IMG/VR virus record: IMGVR_UViG_3300017782_000206
Span: 1-24,734 of that record
Strand: one strand, 5' to 3'
DNA: 24,734 nucleotides
DNA from: a virus
Shown piece by piece: positions 1 through 24,734 of the stretch. Numbering within the stretch: the stretch's first letter is position 1; each line of letters begins with the position of its first letter. Below the pieces are notes generated by a model. That model did no database searches. It was given only the letters and a program-made list of their open reading frames with translations, and was not told where the DNA came from. The position numbers were made by a program, and so were the translations under genes.

Positions 1-504
1 GTCATTCATTTGTCTGAATGTCAAGTCCCACCAATCATCCATGAACTCACGTACAATCGGTTTAGACATATCATATAAACATACTGCTCCGCATAGTGTG
101 AACTTAGAAACGCCTTCCGGAGTATCAAAGTCACGTTCTGCATATATGTAGTCACGGTCATCTGTCAAAGCGGTGAAGACCACATCGTGATCTTTCATTT
201 CGTCCCATACTTTGACGATGTCTTCATGCTCTACTTCCATGTCAGCATCAATATACATCGTTAGGTCATACGGCGATTTCGCCATACCCCATAACTTAGC
301 GCGGTAGTGATCGTCACATAAGAGAATATCGTCTGCGACATCTCGACCACGGTCATCAAGGAATCGTTCCTCAGTCACCAAACAGATCTTGCATTCCTCT
401 TCTGGTTCATAGTAGTCCCGAAGAGACTCTGCAAGATTGATTGCGTACAAATAAAAGTTGCGTTTCTTAGACGCAACAATAATAAAACCTTTACTCTTTT
501 CCAT
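1..504 (-). CDS. Putative glycosyltransferase (GT-A-like), 3' end cut by window edge
   Basis: An open frame of 168 codons starts at the ATG at 504-502 and runs off the left edge with no stop. The N-terminus (KGFIIVASKKRNFYLYAINL) looks like the first strand and helix of a nucleotide-diphospho-sugar transferase. Residues 84-88 read YIDAD, a DxD-type metal and nucleotide-sugar binding motif (D86, D88) preceded by hydrophobic residues, as expected for a GT-A fold. Downstream, around F136-Y147, comes a FTLCGAVCLYD stretch that could shape the acceptor side. The start overlaps the end of the upstream 153-aa gene by 14 bases, which suggests translational coupling. Sugar donor and acceptor cannot be read from the sequence. 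It could modify host surface sugars, phage DNA or virion proteins. The GT-like call rests on the DxD context only, so the fold is likely but the activity is inferred. Confidence 0.6.
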   Translation of the reverse strand, partial: MEKSKGFIIVASKKRNFYLYAINLAESLRDYYEPEEECKICLVTEERFLDDRGRDVADDILLCDDHYRAKLWGMAKSPYDLTMYIDADMEVEHEDIVKVWDEMKDHDVVFTALTDDRDYIYAERDFDTPEGVSKFTLCGAVCLYDMSKPIVREFMDDWWDLTFRQMND

Positions 505-994: not shown

Positions 995-1022
995 CAAAAA
1001 TAGTGGGGCATTTCTGCCCCAC
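995..1022 (-). terminator. Rho-independent terminator after the 1526-aa repeat gene
   Basis: A perfect 8-bp GC-rich stem (GTGGGGCA / TGCCCCAC, 1003-1010 with 1015-1022) has a 4-base loop. On the minus strand it is followed by TATTTTTG. It lies 21 bases past the stop codon of the upstream gene (TAA at 1045-1043). The T-tract is on the minus-strand 3' side only, which fixes the direction. Confidence 0.9.
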
Positions 1023-1042
1023 TTTCATTTCTATTCGCGTTA

Positions 1043-4000
1043 TTATGCAACCCTTGCGTATAGAGTATACGTCTCGACCACATTAGTTAGTGAGTCAGAG
1101 ATTGTTGCACCTACGTAGTTACCTAGGAACGATCGTGCGTAGTTTCCTACGAAGTTACGGTTATAGTTCCCTTCGAATCCACGAGTATAGTTACCAGTGA
1201 AGTCACCTACGTATGTTGAAACACGATTACGTGAGTAAGCACCTGAGTAAGCAGATGTTCTGATACGTGCGTATGCAGATACGCGGACACGAGAGTAGTT
1301 ACCTACAAAGTCACGAGAGTAAGTACCAGTGTACTCACCTACGAAACCACGGTTGTAGTTACCTACATAGTTCCCTGCGAAGTCACGCGAGTAAGCACCT
1401 GTGTATTCACCAACGAATCCACGAGCATAGTTACCTACATAATCACCAGCAAATCCGCGAGTGTATGCACCAGTGTATTCACCAGCGAATCCACGTGAGT
1501 AAGCACCTGTGTACTCACCTACGAAACCACGGTTATAGTTTCCTACGAAGTCTCCGACAAAGTCACGAGCATATGCACCAGTGTACTCACCTGCAAACGT
1601 TCTTGCGTAGTTACCTACGAAGTCGCCGGCAAATTGACGTGTGTACTGACCTGAGAAAGTACGCGCATAGTTACCAGTGAATGTTGTGTTATACGTACCA
1701 GCATATTCACCAACGAAACCTCTTGCGTAGTTACCAGTATAGTCACCAGCGAAGTTACGGTTGTAAGTGCCAGAGTAAGCACCAGTGTACTCACCTACGA
1801 ATCCACGAGAGTAAGCACCAGTGTACTGACCAGAGAATCCACGAGAGTAGTTACCCACATAGTTTCCACCGAAGTTACGTGCATAGTTACCTACATAGTT
1901 ACCAGCGAAGTCTCCAACGAAATCACCGACGAAGTTGCCAGCGAAGTTGCGTGAGTAGTTGCCAGTAAATGTGCGAGAATAGTTACCAGTAAAGTCACCT
2001 GCAAAGTTAGTCACACGATCACGAGTGTATGCAGAAGAACGGTTGCGGACATATGCAGATACACGAGTTCTTGCGTATGCAGAGTAACGAGTGCGTGTTG
2101 ATGTACGAGTGTACTCACCAGTGTAGTTACCAGCAAAGTCGCCTGCGTATCCACGTGCATAGTTACCAACAAAGTCACCAGTAAAGGTTGTTGTGTAGTT
2201 ACCCACAAAGTTACCAGCAAAGTTAGTTACGCGATCTCTAGTGAAATCACCAACGTAGTTGGTCACACGAGTACGGGCATATGCAGAACCACGGTTACGG
2301 GTTGAGTCACGAGTACTGTTACGAGTGTATTCACCTACGTAGTTACCGGCATAGTATCCAGTACGTGTGTAGTTACCGGTATTCGTGTACACTGCAGTGC
2401 GGTCACGCGTGAATGCACGAGCATAGTTACCAGTGTAGTACAATGTACGAGTGTAGTAACCAGTGTTTGTAGAAGTACGCGTAGAAGTACGTGCGTAGTT
2501 ACCTACGTAAGATGCAGCGCGTGTACGTGAGTAGTTTCCTACAAAGTTACCAGCGTAGTTAGTTACACGAGTACGACCATAGTTGCCAGTATAAGTGGCA
2601 GCACGATTACGAGAATAGTTGCCTACGAAGTTACCAGCGTAGTTTGTAACACGATCACGAGTATATGCGGAACCTCTTGTACGAGTGTATGCACGTGCAT
2701 AGTTACCAGTGTAAGATGCAGCACGAGTACGAGTGTAGTAGTAAGTAACTGTACGTGCATAGTTACCAGTGAAAGAACCACTTGATGTTCTTGTGTATTG
2801 TGTGACGAAAGTCCCAGAATAGTTACCGGTATAGTTACCGGTATAAGAGGCGCCACCCGATTGATATGTAACAGCAAAGTGGGTTATAAATGATCCATAG
2901 TAACTTCTTAATGTACCACGATAATACGTGACGCCACCAGAAGTAATACTATCGACATTACCAATTGCAATTGCGACATTCAGGCCATCAACATAAACTT
3001 GGTTGATGGTTACTCCACCTTCAGTGTCACGCTTCCAACCAGTTGTTACACCCCAGAAGGCTCCATTATATGCGTTGGTTACGGTACTACCTGTACCAGT
3101 AGAAACACTTGTAGAGACACGCGTATAAGTGCCTACGAAGTTACCACTATAGTTACCAGTGTAAGATGCAACACGATTACGAGTATAAGTGACTGGACCT
3201 GTTCTTGCGTAATCACCGACATAAGACGCAGCACGTGCACGAGTAAATGCACGAGCGTAGTTTCCTACAAAGTTACGCCCATAGTTTCCTACGAAGTTAC
3301 CAGCATAGTTAGTTACACGAGTACGACTATAGTTGCCAGTATAAGTGGCAGCACGATTACGAGAATAGTTGCCAGCAAAGTTGCCTTCAAAGTTAGTTAC
3401 ACGATCACGTGAGTAGTTACCTACATAAGATGCAGCACGAGTACGCGAATAGTCACCTACGAAGTCACCTGCGTAGTATAGTGTACGAGTGTATGCTGGA
3501 GTACGAGAATATGCAGCAGAATAGTTACGAGCATAGTTTCCAACGAAGTTACCTGTGTAGTACAATGTACGCGTATAGTTCAATGTACGCGTTGATGTGC
3601 GGGTTGATGTACGTGCGTAGTTACCAGTAAAGTCACCAGTGTAGTTGCCAGCATAGTTACGAGCATAGTTTCCTACGAAATCGCCAGTAAATGTGGTTGC
3701 ATAGTTACCTACAAAGTTTCCGGCATAGTCAGTAACACGTGTGCGGGTAAAGTTGCCGACATAGTTAGTAATGCGTGTGCGAGCATAAGCACTGTAACGA
3801 GTACGAGTAGATGTACGAGTTGAAACACGAGCATAGTTGCCGACATAGTTGCCAGCATAACCACGAGAGTAGTTACCAACAAAGTTACGAGCATAGTTGC
3901 CTTGGAAAGAACGTGAGTAGTTACCTACGAAGTTTCCAGCAAAGTTGGTTACACGATTACGGACATATGAAGAAACACGTGCACGAGAATAAACACCAGC

Positions 4001-5623
4001 AAAGTTGGTTACACGATCACGAGTGTAGTTAGTTACACGGGTGCGTGTGTAATCTGCAGAGTATGCAGAGACGCGTGTACGAGTTGAGGTACGAGCATAC
4101 GCAGAAACACGGTTACGCGAGTAAGTTCCCGCATAAGCAGAAACACGGTTACGTGAGTAAGTGCCTGAGTAAGTACCTGTGTATGATGAAACGCGTGTGC
4201 GAGTATAGTTTGCAGAGTATGAAGAACTGCGTGTACGCGAGTAAGTACCTGCGTATGAAGAGACACGACCACGAGTGTACGAAGATGCACGACTACGTGA
4301 GAATGTTCCGGTGAAGTTAGTCACACGGTTACGAGTGTAAACAGAAACACGTGCACGGTTATAAGTGCCTGCAAAGTAACCAGTAAATGCAGTCAATCGA
4401 TTACGTGTGTATGATGAAATGCGTGTACGAGCATATGTGCCCGAGTACGCAGAAGTACGAGTTCGCGAATAAGTTCCTGAGTAAGCAGAAACGCGAGTAC
4501 GACCGTAGTTGTCTGAGTAAGACGAATTACGAGTACGCGAGTAAGTACCAGTGTATGAAGATACGCGAGTACGACCATAGTCAGCAGCATATGCTGAACT
4601 GCGGTTACGTGAGTAAGTACCGTCATAAGTTGAAGTACGCGTACGAGCATAATTACCTTCAAATCCACGAGTATAGTTACCAGTGAAGTCACGCGTATAT
4701 GCACCAGTGTAATCCCCCACGAAAGTTCGTGAGAAAGTGTTGACACTGTTGCGAGTATATGATGAAATGCGGTCACGACTATATGCAGAAATACGAGTAC
4801 GAGCATACGAAGAAACACGGTTACGAGTGTAATCGGTATCTATGATTGTGCGTCGTGAGTTCTCTGCACTACCACGAGCATGCCATGTTCCTGGCAAGAT
4901 AGGTGCACCCTGAGCAGAAGATCTTAACTGATAAGATCCAATTGCGCCTGGGACCGATCGTAATGTCTTAGCTCGTTGACCTAGAGTAAAAGACATTTGA
5001 CCGTTGGTCATCTCTTTGAAACCATCAAAGGATGAACCATCATAACAGATGGCGACCGGACGTTCTTCATCAGGTGCTATGTATGAACCGTCTTTTTGAT
5101 AAATGTGGTAAGGTGTTGTTGTGCCGTCACCAAGTGTATCGGTGAAGACATTAGAAATAGCAACCTTATAATCAGGACTTGGTGGAATAGAAGATAGTCT
5201 ATAAATTCCATTCCATTGGTTTGTTTCCATTGTGCTTAATGCACGAGTTACGAGGAGGTCTAGATCACCATCCGTCATTTCATAGAAACCCGGATTGTCA
5301 CCTAGCTCGTAATAACCAACAGGACGTACAAAATTTTCTCCAGACTCATCAGCAGTACCGCCTACTTGCTTTAGCGTAGTAGTTACGGTGGTACTAGTGA
5401 TGTTAGATGCAGGGTGTGTTCCTGCCACTTCATTGTAGTATGTATCTACAAATGAACCAATATTAACACCATCAGTAAGACTGAGGTTGCCTGTGTCACT
5501 AGCAGCGGCCGCTGTTAGTGCTTCAGATACGGCATACGCAAGATATTCTTCTTGCGAAGGCGTAAATTCCTGTAAGTCACCATTAGCATTTTGAATTTTT
5601 AGTGGAATACTAGATGTTGACAC
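1043..5623 (-). CDS. Giant tetrapeptide-repeat (Y/F-x-G/R-N) virion protein, putative tail fibre or adhesin
   Basis: A 1526-aa protein. The start is GTG at 5623-5621, because the next in-frame Met is over 100 residues in. Residues 1-264 are a non-repetitive N-terminal domain, probably for virion attachment. Residues 265-836 are 143 consecutive tetrapeptides, 837-926 a non-repeat island, 927-1506 another 145 tetrapeptides, and 1507-1526 a short tail. Typical units are YTGN, FVGN, YSRN and the eight-residue pair YTRT-RVSS. Aromatics fall every 4 or 8 residues without a register slip. The tracts lack Lys, Cys, His, Trp and Met and are nearly Pro-free. Short xTGN-type tetrapeptide runs occur in phage tail fibres, but this length and aromatic content are unusual to me. 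It has its own late promoter and terminator and follows a chaperone-like gene. Fibre or adhesin is inferred; the biochemical role is unknown. Confidence 0.85.
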   Translation of the reverse strand: MSTSSIPLKIQNANGDLQEFTPSQEEYLAYAVSEALTAAAASDTGNLSLTDGVNIGSFVDTYYNEVAGTHPASNITSTTVTTTLKQVGGTADESGENFVRPVGYYELGDNPGFYEMTDGDLDLLVTRALSTMETNQWNGIYRLSSIPPSPDYKVAISNVFTDTLGDGTTTPYHIYQKDGSYIAPDEERPVAICYDGSSFDGFKEMTNGQMSFTLGQRAKTLRSVPGAIGSYQLRSSAQGAPILPGTWHARGSAENSRRTIIDTDYTRNRVSSYARTRISAYSRDRISSYTRNSVNTFSRTFVGDYTGAYTRDFTGNYTRGFEGNYARTRTSTYDGTYSRNRSSAYAADYGRTRVSSYTGTYSRTRNSSYSDNYGRTRVSAYSGTYSRTRTSAYSGTYARTRISSYTRNRLTAFTGYFAGTYNRARVSVYTRNRVTNFTGTFSRSRASSYTRGRVSSYAGTYSRTRSSSYSANYTRTRVSSYTGTYSGTYSRNRVSAYAGTYSRNRVSAYARTSTRTRVSAYSADYTRTRVTNYTRDRVTNFAGVYSRARVSSYVRNRVTNFAGNFVGNYSRSFQGNYARNFVGNYSRGYAGNYVGNYARVSTRTSTRTRYSAYARTRITNYVGNFTRTRVTDYAGNFVGNYATTFTGDFVGNYARNYAGNYTGDFTGNYARTSTRTSTRTLNYTRTLYYTGNFVGNYARNYSAAYSRTPAYTRTLYYAGDFVGDYSRTRAASYVGNYSRDRVTNFEGNFAGNYSRNRAATYTGNYSRTRVTNYAGNFVGNYGRNFVGNYARAFTRARAASYVGDYARTGPVTYTRNRVASYTGNYSGNFVGTYTRVSTSVSTGTGSTVTNAYNGAFWGVTTGWKRDTEGGVTINQVYVDGLNVAIAIGNVDSITSGGVTYYRGTLRSYYGSFITHFAVTYQSGGASYTGNYTGNYSGTFVTQYTRTSSGSFTGNYARTVTYYYTRTRAASYTGNYARAYTRTRGSAYTRDRVTNYAGNFVGNYSRNRAATYTGNYGRTRVTNYAGNFVGNYSRTRAASYVGNYARTSTRTSTNTGYYTRTLYYTGNYARAFTRDRTAVYTNTGNYTRTGYYAGNYVGEYTRNSTRDSTRNRGSAYARTRVTNYVGDFTRDRVTNFAGNFVGNYTTTFTGDFVGNYARGYAGDFAGNYTGEYTRTSTRTRYSAYARTRVSAYVRNRSSAYTRDRVTNFAGDFTGNYSRTFTGNYSRNFAGNFVGDFVGDFAGNYVGNYARNFGGNYVGNYSRGFSGQYTGAYSRGFVGEYTGAYSGTYNRNFAGDYTGNYARGFVGEYAGTYNTTFTGNYARTFSGQYTRQFAGDFVGNYARTFAGEYTGAYARDFVGDFVGNYNRGFVGEYTGAYSRGFAGEYTGAYTRGFAGDYVGNYARGFVGEYTGAYSRDFAGNYVGNYNRGFVGEYTGTYSRDFVGNYSRVRVSAYARIRTSAYSGAYSRNRVSTYVGDFTGNYTRGFEGNYNRNFVGNYARSFLGNYVGATISDSLTNVVETYTLYARVA
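1106..2845 (-). repeat. Tetrapeptide (12-bp) repeat tract 2, 145 units
   Basis: This encodes residues 927-1506 of the 1526-aa protein. I split it by hand into 145 tetrads with no register change. The first half resembles tract 1 (YTGN, YSRN-RAAT, STRT runs). The second half shifts to acidic units (FVGE, FAGD) and Ala-ending units (YTGA). The coding strand prefers C-ending codons: Asn is almost always AAC and Tyr is mostly TAC. Confidence 0.95.
1298..1849 (-). repeat. Higher-order 12-residue (36-bp) super-repeat inside tract 2
   Basis: From about residue 1259 to 1442 tetrads often group in threes, of the form YxRG-FxGE-YTGA (for example YSRG-FVGE-YTGA and YTRG-FAGD-YVGN). This gives an approximate 36-bp period on top of the 12-bp one. 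Long near-identical DNA stretches recur here, which points to recent unequal exchange. Confidence 0.8.
2846..3115 (-). other. Non-repeat island domain (residues 837-926) within the repeat protein
   Basis: Exactly 90 residues separate the two repeat tracts. The island contains Trp, Lys and His, which the repeats lack (AFWGVTTGWKRDTEGG), and beta-rich segments (VYVDGLNVAIAIGNV, GGVTYYRGTLRSYYG). It looks like a small folded beta domain at a mid-fibre position. I recognise no family. Tract lengths on either side are nearly equal, at 572 and 580 residues. Confidence 0.75.
3116..4831 (-). repeat. Tetrapeptide (12-bp) repeat tract 1, 143 units
   Basis: This encodes residues 265-836 as 143 tetrads. 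The first half is rich in the Arg/Ser octapeptide type (YSRT-RVSA, YTRN-RVTN). Toward the island, YxGN and FVGN units become common. Exceptions such as STRT-STRT, LNYT-RTLY and YSRT-PAYT-RTLY still keep the four-residue register. Confidence 0.95.
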
Positions 5624-5682: not shown

Positions 5683-5690
5683 TATTTATA
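5683..5690 (-). promoter_or_regulatory. T4-type late promoter (TATAAATA) for the 1526-aa gene
   Basis: An exact match to the T4 late octamer TATAAATA on the minus strand, in the 79-base gap before the GTG at 5623. It directly follows the T-tract of the upstream terminator. T4-type late promoters use a phage sigma (gp55) and need no -35 box. Transcription would begin near 5677, giving a leader of about 50 bases. Confidence 0.8.
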
Positions 5691-5691
5691 A

Positions 5692-5716
5692 TAAAAAATC
5701 CCCTAAGAGTTAGGGG
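5692..5716 (-). terminator. Rho-independent terminator overlapping the stop of the 161-aa gene
   Basis: A perfect 7-bp stem (CCCCTAA / TTAGGGG, loop of 3) is followed on the minus strand by ATTTTTTAT. The TAG stop at 5705-5703 lies within the hairpin. It separates the chaperone-like gene from the 1526-aa repeat gene. Confidence 0.88.
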
Positions 5717-6188
5717 TTGTAGGCCAATTTACTTCCGCGACGGAAAGTATCGCTCCTAAATTATCTGTAACATCTCTTAACGATTGACGGTAATTTTTCC
5801 ATCCTATTCGTTGTTCTTCAGTCAAAGGACTGTCCGCCACTTGAGTCCAATCTGTTAATGACAATTTTCTATTTCTTTCTACCCTGATATCGTTCAGTAA
5901 ATCTTCTCGGTTAAACTCCCATCCACCCAGTTCATTGCTCCAAGTGGCATGCCTATTAGGCGGACTACCAATAAAAATAAATTCTCCATCCGATGGAACA
6001 TACCAATAATAACTCATAAAGTGACGAAGATCTTCGCACCCTGCAGGGACTCTATCTTCTGTTATGTGAAGTATTAACTCTTTTCCATCTTCAGAGACAC
6101 CGGCTGGATCTATTTTAAAAGTAGGGTATGAAATCCTATTTATTTTACCAGACACTTTATCTACGTAGACGATGTATTTCAATTCCAT
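5703..6188 (-). CDS. Phage tail assembly chaperone-like protein (second copy)
   Basis: A 161-aa protein starting at ATG 6188. AAAGG upstream is the probable ribosome site, with a rather long spacer. The N-terminal 100 residues include a Trp/Tyr-rich segment (FMSYYWYVPSDGEF). The C-terminus carries the pattern RNRKLSLTDWTQVADSPL, then WKNYRQSLRDV and a final WP-P. This matches the phage tail assembly chaperone / tail-fibre assembly C-terminal domain (R-x-x-L-x-x-x-DWTQ, YRQxLRD, WP). Such proteins help fibres fold or trimerise and are often not in the virion. It lies between the two repeat proteins and is related to the 131-aa protein at 10869-11264 through this C-terminal motif. Its own late promoter and terminator make it a separate transcription unit. 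Partner choice is inferred from position. Confidence 0.82.
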   Translation of the reverse strand: MELKYIVYVDKVSGKINRISYPTFKIDPAGVSEDGKELILHITEDRVPAGCEDLRHFMSYYWYVPSDGEFIFIGSPPNRHATWSNELGGWEFNREDLLNDIRVERNRKLSLTDWTQVADSPLTEEQRIGWKNYRQSLRDVTDNLGAILSVAEVNWPTTPNS

Positions 6189-6216: not shown

Positions 6217-6224
6217 TATTTATA
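6217..6224 (-). promoter_or_regulatory. T4-type late promoter (TATAAATA) for the chaperone-like gene
   Basis: An exact TATAAATA on the minus strand in the 46-base gap between the 1437-aa gene stop (6235) and the ATG at 6188. The predicted leader is only about 20 bases. Confidence 0.78.
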
Positions 6225-6234
6225 TACTTTAAAT

Positions 6235-9200
6235 TCACTCAAGTCCAACATTTTCAGAAGTAAATGTTGTAGTAAATGTTGGGGTGTATGTTGGGGTGAA
6301 TGTTGGAGTATATGTTGGTGTATATGTTGGTGTTGTAGAATCTGTTGATGTGCTTGACACCTTAGTGACTGTGTACTCTCCTGAGTTCAACCATTGACTT
6401 CCATTGTAGAAACCAATAGTGTATTGTTTTGTTTGTCCTTCTGCAGGTACATCTGAAACAGTAACGGTTTGAGCACCATTAGCGTTCTGTATAGAGAATG
6501 ATTGAAGGAGAGTTAAGTTGTTATTATAAATTCGACCTTGAACTGACTGACCCCCTTGCGTATTAAAATCAAACTCTACCGTATGTGTCGTCGCGCTATG
6601 GTGTACAACATTTTGAGTCGTTGATAAAATAGTGCCGATGTCATTATCATACAAAGTAAATGACTTTGAGTCAAGTACTCGCACATTAGATGATCCTCTA
6701 GGTTCAGACATTAAAGATGCGGTATTGCCTGTTCTCAATTCAGCAACGAATGTTTCTCCTTGCCAACCAATTTCAGAATCTTCTTGACTTCCTGTTCCAG
6801 TGCGTGTATAATTGCCTATGTAGTTTCCTGTATAGCCTCCTACAAATGTTCTCTCGTAAGCACCACCAAATGTATTTGCATAGGAGCTAGATCTAGCGCG
6901 AGTACTGGTTCTATTATAAGTGCCTTCGTAAGCGCCAGTATATTCACCAACAAACCCTCTACTATAATTTTCTTCAAAAGGTCTTGTATAATCACGAGAA
7001 TAATTTCCAGTATATTCACCGGCGTAGTTTCCAGAATAATTACCAGTGTAGTTAGAACCTATTGATCTAGCGAACTCAACAGTATAGTTTCCGATGAATG
7101 GTGTTAAAAAATCACCTGTATAGTTACCAGCGAAGTTGCCTACATACTCTCCAACATACCCACGTGCATAGTTTCCAGTGTAATTGCCTACAAGGAAGTC
7201 TCTAGTAAAATATCCAGCCCCTTGTGTAACTCTTGTGCGAGTAAATTCTCTGCTATAATTTCCGCCGAAGTTGCGTGAATAGTTTCCTTCGAAGTTTGCA
7301 GTATAGTTTCCAAAATAGTTTCTACTATAATTACCAACAAAGGTGCCAGCAAAATCACCGACATAATCTCCAACATACCCACGCGCATATTCACCTACAA
7401 ACCCAGTACTATAGGACCTAGTATATGCCGAATCACGACTTCTAGAGTAATCTGTTATTCTTGTTCTGTTATAATTGCCCGCAAAGTTGCCCACAGAAGT
7501 GCGTGAATAGTTCCCCTCAAAAGTAGAAGTTCTTATGAGAATGAAGTTTCTACTATAGTATAACGTTCTAGTGAAGTTGCGTGAATAGTTGATAGCATAA
7601 TCTATGGATCTTGTATAATCACCTGTAAAGTTTCCAGCAAACCCTCTTGAATAATTACCTACATAATAAAGGGTTCTACTATAACTAGAGGACCTTACTC
7701 TAGCATACCCATCATGCGGAACCTCATATTCTATAGGATCACCATTTATATCAGTCTCAGGTAATGTAGATATTCTGGTAGATGCATAGTATCCAGTTCC
7801 AGTTCTTGTGCGAGTGTATCCACGAATAAAGTCCCTCGCATAGTTAAAGTCTCGCGAGTAAGTGCCTGTAAACGGAGCAGTAAATTCACTGGAATATGTC
7901 GCGCCGTTGGTAAATGATTGAGTACGATCCCTAGTAAAATTACGCGTATATTCAGTAGTTGTTCCAGTAGGGGCCGCGGTAGAACTTGTGGTTCCTTGAC
8001 CAACTTCATAATACTTGGTGCCACCTATTGTAGCGATTAAATCACCTCTCCAGTAATAAATGTTATCGTTACCTTTTAACTTAGTTGGGCCGTTGCCATA
8101 ATCCCGTGTGTCATTAAGTACTTTCGTTGTTCCGTTCCATTTAATATTGGTGACATGTACTGTGATCGAAAACCCTTCGGAATTACTAGTATTAGTATCA
8201 ACTGAGAAGAAAGTGTTGTTTGCAGTGTAAAAATATCCATCGCCAATGGTACGTGTATATCCACGAGAATAGTTACCAGTAAAAGTACTAATTCTTCCTG
8301 CTGCAGCGAAGTCGCCAACATAGTTGCCTGTGTAAGTGCCTTCGTAACCAACAGTTCTCGTAAAGTTGCGTGTGAATCCACGAGAATAGTTTCCTATATA
8401 ATATAAGGTTCTTGTAGAGTCGGCTGGGAAATAAACTCCAGTAAATTCTCCGACATAAGAACCGACTGTTGTTCTGGTGCGACTATAGGCAGAATATCGC
8501 GTACGGGTAGATGTGCGAGTAAATTCTACTGCTGGGTTTACATAATTCCCAAGATAATTTCTAGCGTATGACCCCACCCTAGTATAGTCACCAGCATAGT
8601 TACCAGTGTAACTTGCGCTAGTCGTTCTCGCATAATCACCTACAAAATTCGTAACTCTGGTTCGCCCGTAGTTGCCAACAAAGTTCCCAGTAAAAGTTGC
8701 AGTATATGTACTAGAGTAATACTCGTTACGAGTCACGCCTCTAGTGCGACTATATGTAGAGTAACGTGTGCGACTATATGTTACCGTACTTGGCATTCTA
8801 AAATAATACGCAACATCACCAGTGGGAAAGTCTCTAGAGTACTCTTGTGGTCCAGTTAATATAGCATTTCTTGTAAACTCTCTAGCGTAATATGCTGTAT
8901 AGGATACAGTACGATCTCTGGTATACGCAGAAACTCTCGATCTTGTATAGTTTCTACTGTAGTAGCCAATATATGATGCACCATAACTACGAGCATACGA
9001 TGAAGTTCGGGTAGATTGTCTGCTTCGGTTGTAGGTAGAGTAACGTGTACGACTATATGTCACCGTACTTGGCATTCTAAAATAATACGCAACATCACCA
9101 TTGGGAAGGTTTCTAGAGTACTCTTGTATTTCAGTTAATGTAGAATTTCTTGTGAAGTTTCCTGTGTATATCCCCAAGAACTCTCTAGAGTAATTCGTAG

Positions 9201-10548
9201 TATCTGTTCTGCTGTATCCCGCTACAAATGCAGAGGTTCTGGTTCTTGAATATGTCGCAGAAAAAGATCGCGCGTACCCTTCAACTCTTGTTCTATCATA
9301 AGTACTTGTTCTTGTTCGAGCGTATGCTCCAGAATACTCTCCGGTATATTCTCCAACATAATTACGAGCAAAATCTCTTGAGAACGACCCTGCTACACTT
9401 CGAGAGTATGAAGATATTCTATTTCTTGAATATGTGCCTATGTAATCAGCAACATTGGTATATGAGACTGATCTCGATGAGGTGGGAGAAGTTGTTGTGA
9501 AGGTTGCGCTTTTAGTATCACCAAAGAAAGCTACTCTGTCCGACCCTAAGTCGTTCCCAGAACCAGAAGTTTGAAACACTCGAACATGATATGCACCTTC
9601 TTCAGAAGTATTCGCATTGAATGTAATAGAACTTCCTTCTGTAATTGCAGATCCTGATTGATATGTCAGAGATCCAGTAGCGTTTTGATCTCCGGAACCG
9701 TCACCATCTGAGTCAACATCACCGCCACCACCAGGAGGTTCATAGGTACCAGACCCACCAGTTCTCAAGGTTGCGCCTAGAAGACTGCCTGTAGGATAAA
9801 CTTTGAGTCTCTGGTCGCCATTTTGTAAATTCACAATAGCATCATAAGCTGAAGCTAATGTGCTACCAACCCTTAGACCAAAAAAGTCCGATCCGTGTGA
9901 GTTTTGAGCAGACCATTCAATATTTACATATTCGTTCGTATCTTTGGTCATTACATACGAGCTAGATTCTGTCCCTACTTCATTACTAAGAAGAGGTGGT
10001 AACCATGAAACGATATCAAAGTTAAAGTTTGTTCCTAATGCGCGACTATCAAACGCGACTTCTCCATAGCTTGTGACAATTCGCAGACCTCGGTCTATAC
10101 TAGTATCATAACGGCTTGGGTCGGCCATAATGGTAGATGCTTTTCTGACAACAAAATAATCAAACTCTGTTTGCCAGTCATCATAAACTGTGAGTTTCCA
10201 ATTTTCAAATTGTCCGTCTATTTGAGGGGTGTATGCTTCTATGCCTGTTCCAGTAAATGTTACCGTTTCCCCAGACACATTCATTTTGTGAAGGTAAGGT
10301 GTATCAAAAGTGACCGTCATGATATAATCTGAAGGCACTTCAATATCAACAGAACTCCAGTCACCGCCACCAGGCGCGCTAGGGTTCTTAACAAATATCA
10401 TATCACTTTCTAATAGACCGCCTGGAAGTGTGAACGAGTGTGCACGACCAGCATCTGTGACAATCAGATTAAGAATGTCCAGTTCTGTGTCCGATACAGT
10501 AAATGTTCCTCCGGCATCATTGCCTATTATCTTTAATCCATATGACAT
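6235..10548 (-). CDS. MSYGL-type tail protein with long degenerate tetrapeptide-repeat region
   Basis: A 1437-aa protein starting at ATG 10548, whose codon overlaps the upstream stop as TAATG. Residues 1-265 form an N-terminal domain starting MSYGLKIIG, shared in style with the 103-aa neighbour. Residues 268-287 are a Gly/Asp linker (GGGGDVDSDGDGSGD) with a DxDxDG-like possible calcium loop. Residues 290-368 look Ig-like. Residues 369-1250 are tetrapeptide repeats of the same kind as in the 1526-aa protein, but broken by register-shifting islands: two copies of a 42-aa cassette, a 99-aa island at 768-866, and a smaller one near 920-950. Residues 1251-1406 are a beta-rich C-terminal domain, and 1407-1430 are PTYT/PTFT tetrads. 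Codons are more A/T-ending than in the 1526-aa gene. A tail fibre or adhesin role is inferred. Confidence 0.85.
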   Translation of the reverse strand: MSYGLKIIGNDAGGTFTVSDTELDILNLIVTDAGRAHSFTLPGGLLESDMIFVKNPSAPGGGDWSSVDIEVPSDYIMTVTFDTPYLHKMNVSGETVTFTGTGIEAYTPQIDGQFENWKLTVYDDWQTEFDYFVVRKASTIMADPSRYDTSIDRGLRIVTSYGEVAFDSRALGTNFNFDIVSWLPPLLSNEVGTESSSYVMTKDTNEYVNIEWSAQNSHGSDFFGLRVGSTLASAYDAIVNLQNGDQRLKVYPTGSLLGATLRTGGSGTYEPPGGGGDVDSDGDGSGDQNATGSLTYQSGSAITEGSSITFNANTSEEGAYHVRVFQTSGSGNDLGSDRVAFFGDTKSATFTTTSPTSSRSVSYTNVADYIGTYSRNRISSYSRSVAGSFSRDFARNYVGEYTGEYSGAYARTRTSTYDRTRVEGYARSFSATYSRTRTSAFVAGYSRTDTTNYSREFLGIYTGNFTRNSTLTEIQEYSRNLPNGDVAYYFRMPSTVTYSRTRYSTYNRSRQSTRTSSYARSYGASYIGYYSRNYTRSRVSAYTRDRTVSYTAYYAREFTRNAILTGPQEYSRDFPTGDVAYYFRMPSTVTYSRTRYSTYSRTRGVTRNEYYSSTYTATFTGNFVGNYGRTRVTNFVGDYARTTSASYTGNYAGDYTRVGSYARNYLGNYVNPAVEFTRTSTRTRYSAYSRTRTTVGSYVGEFTGVYFPADSTRTLYYIGNYSRGFTRNFTRTVGYEGTYTGNYVGDFAAAGRISTFTGNYSRGYTRTIGDGYFYTANNTFFSVDTNTSNSEGFSITVHVTNIKWNGTTKVLNDTRDYGNGPTKLKGNDNIYYWRGDLIATIGGTKYYEVGQGTTSSTAAPTGTTTEYTRNFTRDRTQSFTNGATYSSEFTAPFTGTYSRDFNYARDFIRGYTRTRTGTGYYASTRISTLPETDINGDPIEYEVPHDGYARVRSSSYSRTLYYVGNYSRGFAGNFTGDYTRSIDYAINYSRNFTRTLYYSRNFILIRTSTFEGNYSRTSVGNFAGNYNRTRITDYSRSRDSAYTRSYSTGFVGEYARGYVGDYVGDFAGTFVGNYSRNYFGNYTANFEGNYSRNFGGNYSREFTRTRVTQGAGYFTRDFLVGNYTGNYARGYVGEYVGNFAGNYTGDFLTPFIGNYTVEFARSIGSNYTGNYSGNYAGEYTGNYSRDYTRPFEENYSRGFVGEYTGAYEGTYNRTSTRARSSSYANTFGGAYERTFVGGYTGNYIGNYTRTGTGSQEDSEIGWQGETFVAELRTGNTASLMSEPRGSSNVRVLDSKSFTLYDNDIGTILSTTQNVVHHSATTHTVEFDFNTQGGQSVQGRIYNNNLTLLQSFSIQNANGAQTVTVSDVPAEGQTKQYTIGFYNGSQWLNSGEYTVTKVSSTSTDSTTPTYTPTYTPTFTPTYTPTFTTTFTSENVGLE
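6259..6330 (-). repeat. PTYT/PTFT six-unit tetrapeptide repeat at the C-terminus
   Basis: Residues 1407-1430 of the 1437-aa protein read as PTYT, PTYT, PTFT, PTYT, PTFT, TTFT. This is a 12-bp DNA repeat with an aromatic every fourth residue, now with Pro, followed by a 7-residue tail. Confidence 0.9.
8757..8881 (-). repeat. Duplicated 42-aa cassette, copy B
   Basis: This encodes PQEYSRDFPTGDVAYYFRMP followed by STVTYSRTRYSTYSRTR. It pairs with the copy at 9036-9160, 279 bp away (93 codons). About 39 bases in the core are identical between copies. Confidence 0.9.
9036..9160 (-). repeat. Duplicated 42-aa cassette, copy A
   Basis: This encodes IQEYSRNLPNGDVAYYFRMP followed by STVTYSRTRYSTYNRSR. 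The central 17 residues are not tetrads and shift the repeat register by one residue, in both copies. Confidence 0.9.
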
Positions 10549-22186: not shown

Positions 22187-24734
22187 TTATGACAACTGTC
22201 CTAGTATAACTCTTGTTCTTGTTCCGTCGTGAATAGTGATGGCTGTATTTGTAATTCTCATTCCTGGAGCATTTTCGATGCCGATATCCAAACTGCCCGT
22301 GACTTGAGCGTTACTCAACTCAACTTTGTTTGTTGTTGTATTCACGGAGAAAGGACTGATAGATGAGTTAGTGCCATTAACAACCTTGAAATCATTCGCT
22401 TTAATCGTGAACGATGATACACTGTCCCCGTTGATTACTTCGAATCCGGTGAATGTGTTTCCGTCGTCTAGTGCGACGAAGTATTTCTGTTCGACTGCCT
22501 CAAGCCCATTCTCTGTAGCGACAATGCGGGTCGTTAATCCTGCCTGTGAAGTAACAATTTGACCTACTTCACCGTCCGGACCAATAAGTTGAGTTTCAAA
22601 ACTATCGATTGCTGAATTAAGAATCGTTTTGATTTCATCAGAATCAACAATCTTTTGAAGTAATTCTGACCTCGCAGTATTTACAAGTCCCTCAGCAGTT
22701 CCTGCAGGATCAAATAGAAGCGTTGTCTCGAAACTATCAATTGCAGAATTTACAATAACAAGTATATCGCTATCTTTCTTGATACTTTGTTTCAGTAAAG
22801 AACGAGCAGAGGTCGCTGCGCCTATGTCGCTATCTAAATTTCCTTGAAGTTGAGTGATCTTAGATTGTAATGCACTTAGACCAGTCGAATCGTCAGTGAT
22901 CTGAGATTGTAACCCGTCAATAGCAGTGAAGGTAGTTCCACTCTCTAGATTTACATTTAGTTCGGTAATCTTAGATTGTAATGCACTTAGACCAGTAGAG
23001 TCATCTGTGATTGCTTGATCTAGTGCATCGATAGCAGTGAAGGTAGTTCCACTCTCTAGATTTACATTTAGTTCGGTAATCTTAGACTGTAATGCACTTA
23101 GCCCAGTCGAGTCATCTGTGATTGCTTGATCTAGTGCATCGATAGCATTAAAGGTCGTACCACCGCTATCTAATCTTGCAGTTAGAGAAACAACATGTCC
23201 TTGCACAATAGACAGATCTGATTCTGTATCTGAAATGTTTTGCGATAGTCCTGATCTTGCGACAGCATTGTACCCTCTGTCACTATCAACACCTGCTGTT
23301 AGTTCGGTGATCTTAGACTGTAACGCATTTAGACCAGTAGAATCGTCTGTGATTGCTTGATCTAGTGCATCGATAGCACTAAAGGTTCCACCACCTTCAG
23401 CGAGGTCTACTTCAAGCGCAGTAACTTTACCTTGAGTAATACTCAAGTTAGAATCAACACCTTCTATATCTTGTGTTAGTCTGTCCTCGGCATCGACAAT
23501 CAACTTGCCAACACTATCTGTACCAATACCAATCTCCGCACGGAATGATGTTAGACGTTCATTGGTGATCGAAAGTATGTCTGAGTCTGATTTAATGTCT
23601 GATCGGATACCGTCTTCAACATCGTTTAGTAGTTTACCAACACTGTCAGTGCCGATACCGATTTCTGTTCGGAATGATGTTAGACGTTCGTTTGTAATCC
23701 CTAGTATGTCAGAGTCAGATCTAATGTCTGATCGGATACCGTCTTCTACATCGTTCAGTAGTTTACCAACACTGTCATCGCCAAACCCAAGTTCAGTTTT
23801 GAAAGTTGTTAATCGTGAGTTTGTAATCCCTAGTATGTCGGAGTCAGATTTAATGTCAGCACGAATGCCATCTTCTACATCGTTTAATAACTTGCCAACA
23901 CTATCATCGCCAAACCCAAGTTCAGTTTTGAAAGTTGTTAATCGTGAGTTAGTGATCGAAAGTATGTCTGAGTCTGATTTAATGTCTGATCGGATACCGT
24001 CTTCGACATCGTTCAGTAGAGTCGTGATGTCACTTCCTTCACCTAAACCGATCTCAGTCCTAAATCCAGTCAATCGATCGTTAGTGATCGAAAGTGAACC
24101 AGCAGAGTCTAACATCTCTCCGCGCAGTTCATCTTTCACCGCGTTGGTCGCTGCGACAAGACCGTCACTATCTACGCGATCTAGTGACTGATCAAATGTA
24201 GTGATCTTAGAATCAACGATTGATGTTATATCTGAGTCACTTCGGATCTCAGACCGCAATGCATCTTCTACAGTACTAATTGCAGAAATTACAGCTCCTG
24301 AATCTGCTTTGCTTTCGAGCGACTGAGTCAGCGTTGTGACATCACCTGCAAGCGCAAACAGTTCATCTGAGTTTTGACCTACAAGCGCATAAAGTTCGTT
24401 GGTTGTGTTCGAAAGAATAGCACGAACTAAGTCGGAATCAATACCTTCTTGTAACGCGGCATCTAGTTCTTGTATGCGCGAGGAGATTACTTGTAGATCA
24501 CTGTCTGTCTGAATAATCAATGTTGCCATACTGTCCATGGCAAGACCATTCGCGGCAATGTCTGCGCGAAGATCGCTGTCATTGATTGAGTTTAGATCAA
24601 CCCGCAGTTCGGTAACGTCTGCTGATAATACCGAAAGTGTTTCACTATCTTGATCAATACGAGACACCAGTTCGCTTCGGGCAGTCGCTTCAGCATCAAT
24701 GCGAGCGCCTAAGTCCGAGTCGATCTGATTTAGA
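22187..24734 (-). CDS. Repeat-rich tail fibre with lambda J-like C-terminus, 5' end beyond window
   Basis: The frame is open to the right edge and gives at least 848 aa. A GTG at 24667 is in frame, but the upstream codons continue the same sequence (LNQIDSDLGARIDAEATARS), so it is an internal Val and not the start. The body is mostly helical and Asp/Ser-rich with heptad-like spacing (DSDLxxI, LTSF, LLNDVEDGI), including five 43-aa repeats and several 37-aa repeats. The final roughly 120 residues (LTTRIVATENGLEAVEQKYF, then FTGFEVINGDSVSSFTIKAN and FKVVNG) resemble the distal region of phage lambda J-type tail tip proteins. It sits just upstream of gp8. A trimeric coiled-coil fibre or tip protein is likely. 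The N-terminal attachment domain is not visible. Confidence 0.82.
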   Translation of the reverse strand, partial: LNQIDSDLGARIDAEATARSELVSRIDQDSETLSVLSADVTELRVDLNSINDSDLRADIAANGLAMDSMATLIIQTDSDLQVISSRIQELDAALQEGIDSDLVRAILSNTTNELYALVGQNSDELFALAGDVTTLTQSLESKADSGAVISAISTVEDALRSEIRSDSDITSIVDSKITTFDQSLDRVDSDGLVAATNAVKDELRGEMLDSAGSLSITNDRLTGFRTEIGLGEGSDITTLLNDVEDGIRSDIKSDSDILSITNSRLTTFKTELGFGDDSVGKLLNDVEDGIRADIKSDSDILGITNSRLTTFKTELGFGDDSVGKLLNDVEDGIRSDIRSDSDILGITNERLTSFRTEIGIGTDSVGKLLNDVEDGIRSDIKSDSDILSITNERLTSFRAEIGIGTDSVGKLIVDAEDRLTQDIEGVDSNLSITQGKVTALEVDLAEGGGTFSAIDALDQAITDDSTGLNALQSKITELTAGVDSDRGYNAVARSGLSQNISDTESDLSIVQGHVVSLTARLDSGGTTFNAIDALDQAITDDSTGLSALQSKITELNVNLESGTTFTAIDALDQAITDDSTGLSALQSKITELNVNLESGTTFTAIDGLQSQITDDSTGLSALQSKITQLQGNLDSDIGAATSARSLLKQSIKKDSDILVIVNSAIDSFETTLLFDPAGTAEGLVNTARSELLQKIVDSDEIKTILNSAIDSFETQLIGPDGEVGQIVTSQAGLTTRIVATENGLEAVEQKYFVALDDGNTFTGFEVINGDSVSSFTIKANDFKVVNGTNSSISPFSVNTTTNKVELSNAQVTGSLDIGIENAPGMRITNTAITIHDGTRTRVILGQLS
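22850..23400 (-). repeat. 37-aa (111-bp) repeats in the J-like fibre
   Basis: The unit LQSKITELNVNLESGTTFTA followed by IDALDQAITDDSTGLSA occurs several times. Two adjacent copies (anchors at 22921 and 23032) are exactly 111 bp apart and nearly identical. More diverged copies extend toward 23400. Confidence 0.85.
23490..24060 (-). repeat. 43-aa (129-bp) tandem repeats in the J-like fibre
   Basis: The unit DSVGKLLNDVEDGIRSDI, KSDSDILSITN, then RLTTFKTELGFG recurs. Matching anchors at 23511, 23640, 23769 and 23898 are each exactly 129 bp apart, and a fifth diverged copy follows near 24027. Confidence 0.93.

Follow-up and report, generated by a model that had tools for sequence, protein, structure and literature searches.

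Two mirrored tetrapeptide tracts in a 1526-residue phage protein point to a tail fibre built as one long β hairpin

Introduction

What kind of structure can be made by a phage protein, three quarters of which is written in units of four residues? The stretch of DNA analysed here, all 24,734 nucleotides of it, is called the window below; it contains an open reading frame of 1526 codons that runs on the minus strand from position 5623 down to position 1043, begins with GTG and has no stop codon inside. The original prediction, which was made from the letters alone, counted 143 plus 145 four-residue units without a slip, called the product a virion-type protein that matched no characterised fold, and named a novel β-solenoid and an intrinsically sticky fibre among the structures that it might form. 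We describe here a relationship between the two halves of this repeat which suggests a different structure.

The tetrapeptide tracts

Our recount gives the same 143 and 145 tetrads, in two tracts that are both in register (Table 1). No frame slip occurs within either tract, as had been claimed, and the few irregular units (LNYT RTLY, PAYT RTLY and VTYY) differ in content only. The tetrads cover 1152 of the 1526 residues (75%), which is indeed three quarters of the protein. A 90-residue non-repeat piece separates the tracts, and the phase shifts by two across it. The position-1 residues of the tetrads are Y73/R35/F26/S6 for tract 1 and Y76/F41/R19/S6 for tract 2, and position 3 is chiefly Gly or Arg. 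At lags 4, 8, 12 and 16 the aromatic residues show an autocorrelation of 3.4–3.7 times the expected value, and at lags not divisible by 4 one of about 0–0.3; a secondary 12-residue period overlies the four-residue one. The protein has 158 Arg and a single Lys, abundant Tyr and Gly, and a net positive charge. Among the 288 units there are 112 different tetrapeptides, spelled in 237 different ways at the DNA level, so it is selection on the protein that maintains the tetrad pattern. The same number of spellings rules out a recent tandem-repeat expansion as the source of the tracts.

Table 1. Features of the fibre gene and its surroundings in the window
Feature	Position	Strand	Remarks
Intrinsic terminator	1002..1023	minus	A 9-bp stem followed by ATTTTT, just past the end of the fibre gene
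C-terminal strand (..ETYTLYARVA) and stop	1043..1105	minus	Predicted to pack on the base domain
C-arm (tract 2), residues 927–1506, 145 tetrads	1106..2845	minus	Probably the strand that returns; mirrors the N-arm
Tip, residues 837–926	2846..3115	minus	Predicted compact domain at the proposed hairpin turn; fastest-varying part; probable receptor-binding site
N-arm (tract 1), residues 265–836, 143 tetrads	3116..4831	minus	Probable outgoing hairpin strand
Base domain, residues 1–264	4832..5623	minus	Conserved in the alignment; attachment/collar-like; its last strand is predicted to enter the N-arm
TATAAATA, T4-type late-promoter-like box	5683..5690	minus	60 nt upstream of the GTG start
Terminator-like stem-loop	5700..5716	minus	Between the chaperone gene and the late-promoter-like box
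Tail-fibre assembly chaperone (PF16778 Phage_tail_APC)	5703..6188	minus	E 5e-18; PHROGs tail fiber assembly; directly upstream of the fibre gene
Second TATAAATA box	6217-6224	minus	Precedes the chaperone gene
Second tetrad-rich protein, 1437 aa, MSYGLKI..	6235..10548	minus	Base domain differs from that of the 1526-aa protein

The two tracts are mirror images

The key fact, which the original prediction overlooked, is that the two tracts stand in a mirror-image relation. When tract 1 is read outward from residue 265 and tract 2 backward from residue 1503 (a training-free comparison within this single sequence), the mutual information of mirrored units reaches 0.87–1.03 bits at offsets 0/1, whereas the average for all offsets is 0.06 (sd 0.22). 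Over the whole arms, 41 of the 54 position-1 Arg residues lie opposite Phe and 9 opposite Tyr (50/54 opposite one or the other), while none lies opposite Arg; 20,000 shuffles gave 13.3±2.9 Arg:Phe pairs and never more than 27. In the first 60 unit pairs from the bases, Phe is found opposite all 21 position-1 Arg residues. The best of the other rotations gives 31 Arg:Phe pairs, which matches the secondary 12-residue period, and the count never exceeds 25 when tract 2 is read in parallel. The mirrored pairs at position 3 are Arg:Gly, Gly:Arg, Ser:Arg and Gly:Gly, and the irregular units are mirrored as well, STRT being found opposite Gly units and RTLY opposite GNYT/GYYT.

A diagonal scan with pair log-odds trained on a subset of the relatives (proteins other than that of the window) finds one dominant diagonal, i+j=1768, which pairs residues 251–789 with 979–1517 at a score of 208; a tetrad-shuffled copy reaches at most 27. 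A constant sum, rather than a constant difference, argues for antiparallel strands and against a solenoid. No inverted DNA repeats were found, so the peptide mirror did not arise from a DNA palindrome; with the peptide order reversed and yet no such repeats, no DNA process explains it. The two tracts are most likely the paired arms of one hairpin, an option that the original prediction did not contain.

Homologues and paired insertions and deletions

About 345 matching stretches are present in IMG/VR. The comparison set was made up of 35 loci found with the window protein and 80 retained of the 345 matching stretches that a search with an alignment gave, to which one binned contig from prokaryote genomes and one named phage, C48C1, were added. 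A dominant diagonal anchored at the base-domain end and the C-terminus is present in 66 of the 72 complete homologues (these are related and are not independent confirmations) and in 54 of 60 homologues outside the training loci; 6 of the 72 do not show the full base-anchored diagonal. In one member (L062) the arms pair without a gap over 843 residues each. Among 55 homologues, position-1 Arg is opposite Phe in 777 of about 849 cases, Arg:Arg is absent from 2430 mirrored position-1 pairs, and individual sites swap as pairs between F:R and Y:Y; Lys is nearly excluded from their arms (88 Lys vs 7784 Arg). A point against the hairpin is that column covariation across the sequences, with 10 of the top 30 column pairs within ±4 of the sum (4.9% expected), shows only a moderate enrichment near the predicted register, in part because the arm alignments slip by units; this comparison was partly informative.

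The idea of hairpin arms arose from matched gap pairs in alignments of the homologues; early pairwise alignments carried gaps of 28/28, 32/32 and 44/44 residues in tracts 1/2. The net length change of one arm follows that of the other with r = 0.98 in 165 homologue pairs and with r = 0.95 in 20 disjoint pairs in which each sequence is used once (9 of these are exactly equal). In the disjoint pairs 15 of 54 gaps have a partner of the same size at the mirrored place, compared to 0 in the parallel orientation and 0.09 under random pairing. Gap sizes are 0 mod 4 in 1433 cases, 2 mod 4 in 285 (14, 6, 10 and 30 residues among them) and odd in 30, and this even quantum is the demand of an extended strand with two alternating faces. 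How two regions of a gene up to about 1000 residues apart come to gain equal insertions is a question that is hereby made testable.

Database searches bear out the earlier statement that the protein has no characterised match. Neither the base domain nor the full protein matches a Pfam family, the base domain has no match in PHROGs v4 (the repeats get an unnamed match of low-complexity type, 28 bits), and sequence searches of the PDB with the full protein and with a base-domain profile found nothing. Searches of open-access full text for tetrapeptide phage fibres, for compensatory insertions and for Kyanoviridae fibre repeats brought up no earlier description.

Two or three tandem hairpin-fibre genes with differing arm lengths are present in loci L014, L085, L089, L090, L098, L105, L110, L117, L118 and L125, which suggests that fibres of graded length are carried on one virion. 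The last of these (JAAXIF010000028.1) is a contig binned as a Sphingobacteriales MAG and has three such genes; its bin includes two Gp23 capsid genes on two contigs, and these contigs are probably those of a T4-like phage, either misbinned or from infected cells. PF00124 (photosystem genes) is absent from six long relatives, so cyanobacterial hosts are not indicated.

The base domain, the tip and the C-terminus

Neither the base nor the tip model has a match above background by Foldseek against the PDB and BFVD or by VIA-align; AlphaFold2, run on monomers with 17–20 sequences, leaves the arms unfolded (pLDDT ~25–40) and lends the hairpin no atomic support. In the model of one short homologue (L028, 879 aa), residues 10–260 have pLDDT values mostly of 75–95, and the C-terminal strand (859–877) reaches 94 and is placed with the base domain. 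Residues 266 and 859 of that protein add up to the same sum as its arm register, and structural alignments treat residues 44–879 (residues 44–266 plus the C-terminal strand) as one domain; the N- and C-termini are thus both predicted to lie at the base. The tip is predicted as a separate compact fold, with pLDDT ~76–94 over residues ~845–923. The base-domain model has only a weak match to T4 gp11 (Z 2.1 over 48 residues), a protein reported to share its fold with the gp37 collar, and one to the MACPF β-prism (Z 5.1) that is no better than background.

Identity among the relatives drops from 0.76 in the base through 0.69 (distal arm) and 0.54 (next to the tip) to 0.39 in the tip itself; between the window protein and that of L003 the tips are 28% identical and the arms and base 84%. 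This is the profile that a fibre touching the host with its distal end should have.

Gene neighbourhood

Upstream of the fibre gene lie the PF16778 chaperone gene, the gene for the second tetrad protein, another chaperone gene, and tail fibre and baseplate wedge genes; a T4-type capsid protein is present in the long relatives. The claim of a virion-type protein is supported, as a fibre with a rank of aromatics in a tail-module context. The chaperone encoded directly upstream is a probable folding helper of the hairpin fibre, and a homologue of it is found within 1.5 kb upstream in 40 of the 82 hairpin genes tested. Only two TATAAATA boxes are present in the window, each directly upstream of the fibre or the chaperone gene, although their number alone (2 vs 1.5 expected) is not significant. 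One such box and terminators bracket the fibre gene.

Just after the fibre operon, positions 1–504 (minus strand) encode the first part of a glycosyltransferase-like protein that may be an enzyme modifying the fibre or a receptor; it is conserved in 91 of the 117 related loci, as is a 153-aa open reading frame at 491–952. At the other end of the window (22187–24733, minus strand) is the gene for an 848-aa protein with DNA repeats of 111 and 129 nt (SDSDILxITNxRLTxFxTE..), which precedes a gp8-like gene; the protein looks like a repetitive fibre or connector.

Proposed structure and comparison with T4 gp37

The mirrored register with its Arg–aromatic code, the paired and even indels, the variable tip, the conserved base and the tail-gene context with its fibre-assembly chaperones are the observations from which we propose that the protein is, with good probability, a phage tail fibre that forms one giant antiparallel β hairpin with the topology of the T4 gp37 needle. 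It most likely serves T4-like phages as a tail fibre whose distal tip binds the receptor. The N-terminal domain would anchor the fibre, and from it the chain would extend outward as a strand for 143 tetrads, build a small compact domain at the distal end, and return for 145 tetrads beside the outgoing strand to end as a strand of the base domain. Counted from the base, unit n outbound would lie opposite unit n inbound, with like positions facing each other, as Arg:Phe/Tyr or Tyr:Tyr at position 1 and as Arg:Gly, Ser:Arg or Gly:Gly at position 3. Three chains side by side could give a six-stranded needle like that of gp37, about 170–190 nm long by our own estimate of ~0.30–0.33 nm per residue (from the T4 needle and the β-strand rise), in which Tyr, Phe, Arg and Gly would face outward and the small Thr, Val, Ala and Asn inward. 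The tip is a putative binder of the host receptor.

The gp37 needle (domains D10/D11, PDB 2XGF) is an insertion into the collar with both termini at the base, and the tip between its stem arms (residues 882–931 and 960–1009) binds receptors (PMC9603124, PMC6957217). The proposed fibre is like it in having two antiparallel stem arms per chain, a needle inserted in a base domain and a tip subdomain inserted at the far end (the receptor-binding site in gp37), in the placing of Gly opposite aromatics, and in coming from T4-like phages. The i+j=1768 register and the paired indels are those of antiparallel arms of one chain, although pairing between chains fits them equally; the L028 prediction has both termini at the base, and the distal tip is a separately predicted domain with about half the sequence identity of the base. 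On the other hand, the gp37 arms are about 50 residues long while those here are 572 and 580, some 11 times longer; gp37 has His-x-His iron sites whereas the 1526-aa protein has no HxH and no His in its arms; and gp37 has neither the tetrad period nor the Arg:Phe code. Since tests for gp37 homology (hhalign probability 0.1%, E 0.4) and for the iron-binding motif were both negative, we do not file the protein as a gp37 member. The tips of lambda Stf and other gp37-like proteins are six-stranded antiparallel needles of the same general architecture as reported (PMC7291167), and it is in this reported architecture that they are alike; their needles are short and without tetrads. The xTGN/VTGN runs of cyanophage structural proteins (for example S-RIM2 AGH06777.1) share the tetrapeptide period, Gly3-Asn4 and an origin in T4-like marine phages, but the runs are short, have no Tyr, Phe or Arg at position 1 and lie in an otherwise unrelated protein. 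The BLAST matches in S-RIM2 phages were rejected, since the 28–32% identity extends over the TGN motif (VTGN runs) only.

Phage fibres usually string together small trimeric domains of different kinds. We lean, somewhat, toward a new fibre fold here, in which strand register over ~570 to 1000 residues would be set, one residue at a time, by a small pairing alphabet, fibre length would evolve by matched insertions in both arms, and whole domains could be attached to a single arm with the pairing left intact. If the pairing alphabet is true (Arg with Phe/Tyr and Tyr with Tyr; Arg with Gly and Ser with Arg), it resembles the way in which complementary bases register nucleic-acid strands. A single hairpin seems to reach 170 nm or more, and its register can be read from the sequence without a structure. 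It becomes testable how 1200 paired residues of one chain can fold without slippage, and whether the alphabet predicts the length of the fibre and the place of its tip for hundreds of marine phage genomes that are uncharacterised; a likely receptor-binding domain is also located in a large family that lacks annotation.

Alternative explanations

The chief structural rival of the hairpin is an antiparallel homodimer in which two fully extended chains run in opposite directions and the N-arm of each pairs with the C-arm of its partner, so that the tips are in mid-fibre and a base domain is at each end. Mirror symmetry in the sequence and paired indels are expected equally from such pairing between chains, but a tail fibre needs one attached end, and the most variable domain would fall in the middle of the fibre and not at its host-facing end. 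In the AlphaFold2 model the C-terminal strand joins the N-terminal domain of its own chain, although a swap between chains could do likewise; we consider the dimer improbable. The β-solenoid of tetrapeptides, with 12 or 16 residues per coil, was the main idea of the original prediction and would suit the strict four-residue period and its secondary 12-residue period; small solenoids with coils of 12 residues are known. In a solenoid, however, i stacks with i+period and no mirror relation between distant tracts is required, whereas in the window protein tract 1, taken in reverse, predicts tract 2, and the tract lengths change together; nor would the 2 mod 4 indels suit a coil made of whole tetrads. 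Parallel stacking is contradicted by the constant-sum, antiparallel register and the paired even indels, and a solenoid is very improbable. The unstructured, sticky fibre of the original prediction, a disordered Tyr/Arg/Gly-rich low-complexity tether acting by multivalent weak contacts, is if anything less likely still. Its composition (above) does resemble that of phase-separating sequences, and the arms are of low AlphaFold2 confidence, but disorder leaves unexplained the exact register, the one-to-one pairing code, the even indels and the pairing across ~1000 residues.

It is also conceivable, though we think it rather unlikely, that the hairpin is correct and its higher-order form is something other than a gp37-like trimer, such as a self-coiled monomeric two-strand ribbon or a two-layer sandwich that buries the Tyr/Arg face. 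In T4 gp37 the aromatic F970 points into the core against Gly, so a buried face could be aromatic (PMC6957217). Against this, a rough side-chain volume sum suggests that Thr, Val, Ala and Asn, not Tyr, Phe and Arg, fit inside a six-stranded barrel. Fibre-assembly chaperones of the PF16778 kind, one of which adjoins the hairpin gene, usually serve trimers. A study of phage RaK2 likewise links such chaperones to trimers (PMC10253068).

The second tetrad protein and phage C48C1

The 1437-aa tetrad protein has a modest gapped mirror score of 35 (shuffles ≤26); its relatives in L083 and L003 score 64 (shuffles ≤25) and 55 (shuffles ≤19), respectively. It is probably a hairpin too, with many bulges. 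Its tetrad tracts are shorter, and it has an inserted compact domain and a C-terminal TPTYTPTF run.

The one named phage in the comparison set, C48C1 (OQ984149.1, Kyanoviridae), encodes a 3347-aa "hypothetical protein" (WJE88074.1; locus L001, 12630–22673) that is a true homologue of the window protein, with a base domain 64% identical, the same C-terminus and a gene likewise placed after a tail assembly chaperone. It differs in that its arms are about 1000 residues long and globular domains are inserted in the C-arm only; the N-arm is uninterrupted, and the C-arm is broken by several such domains. Pairing picks up again after each insert (score 185 vs ~22 in shuffles), and it appears that domains can hang on one strand with the pairing intact. 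The several inserts are related to one another, are ~100–200 aa each and are flanked by YTRNITDA-like motifs; they are possible adhesin domains along the shaft.
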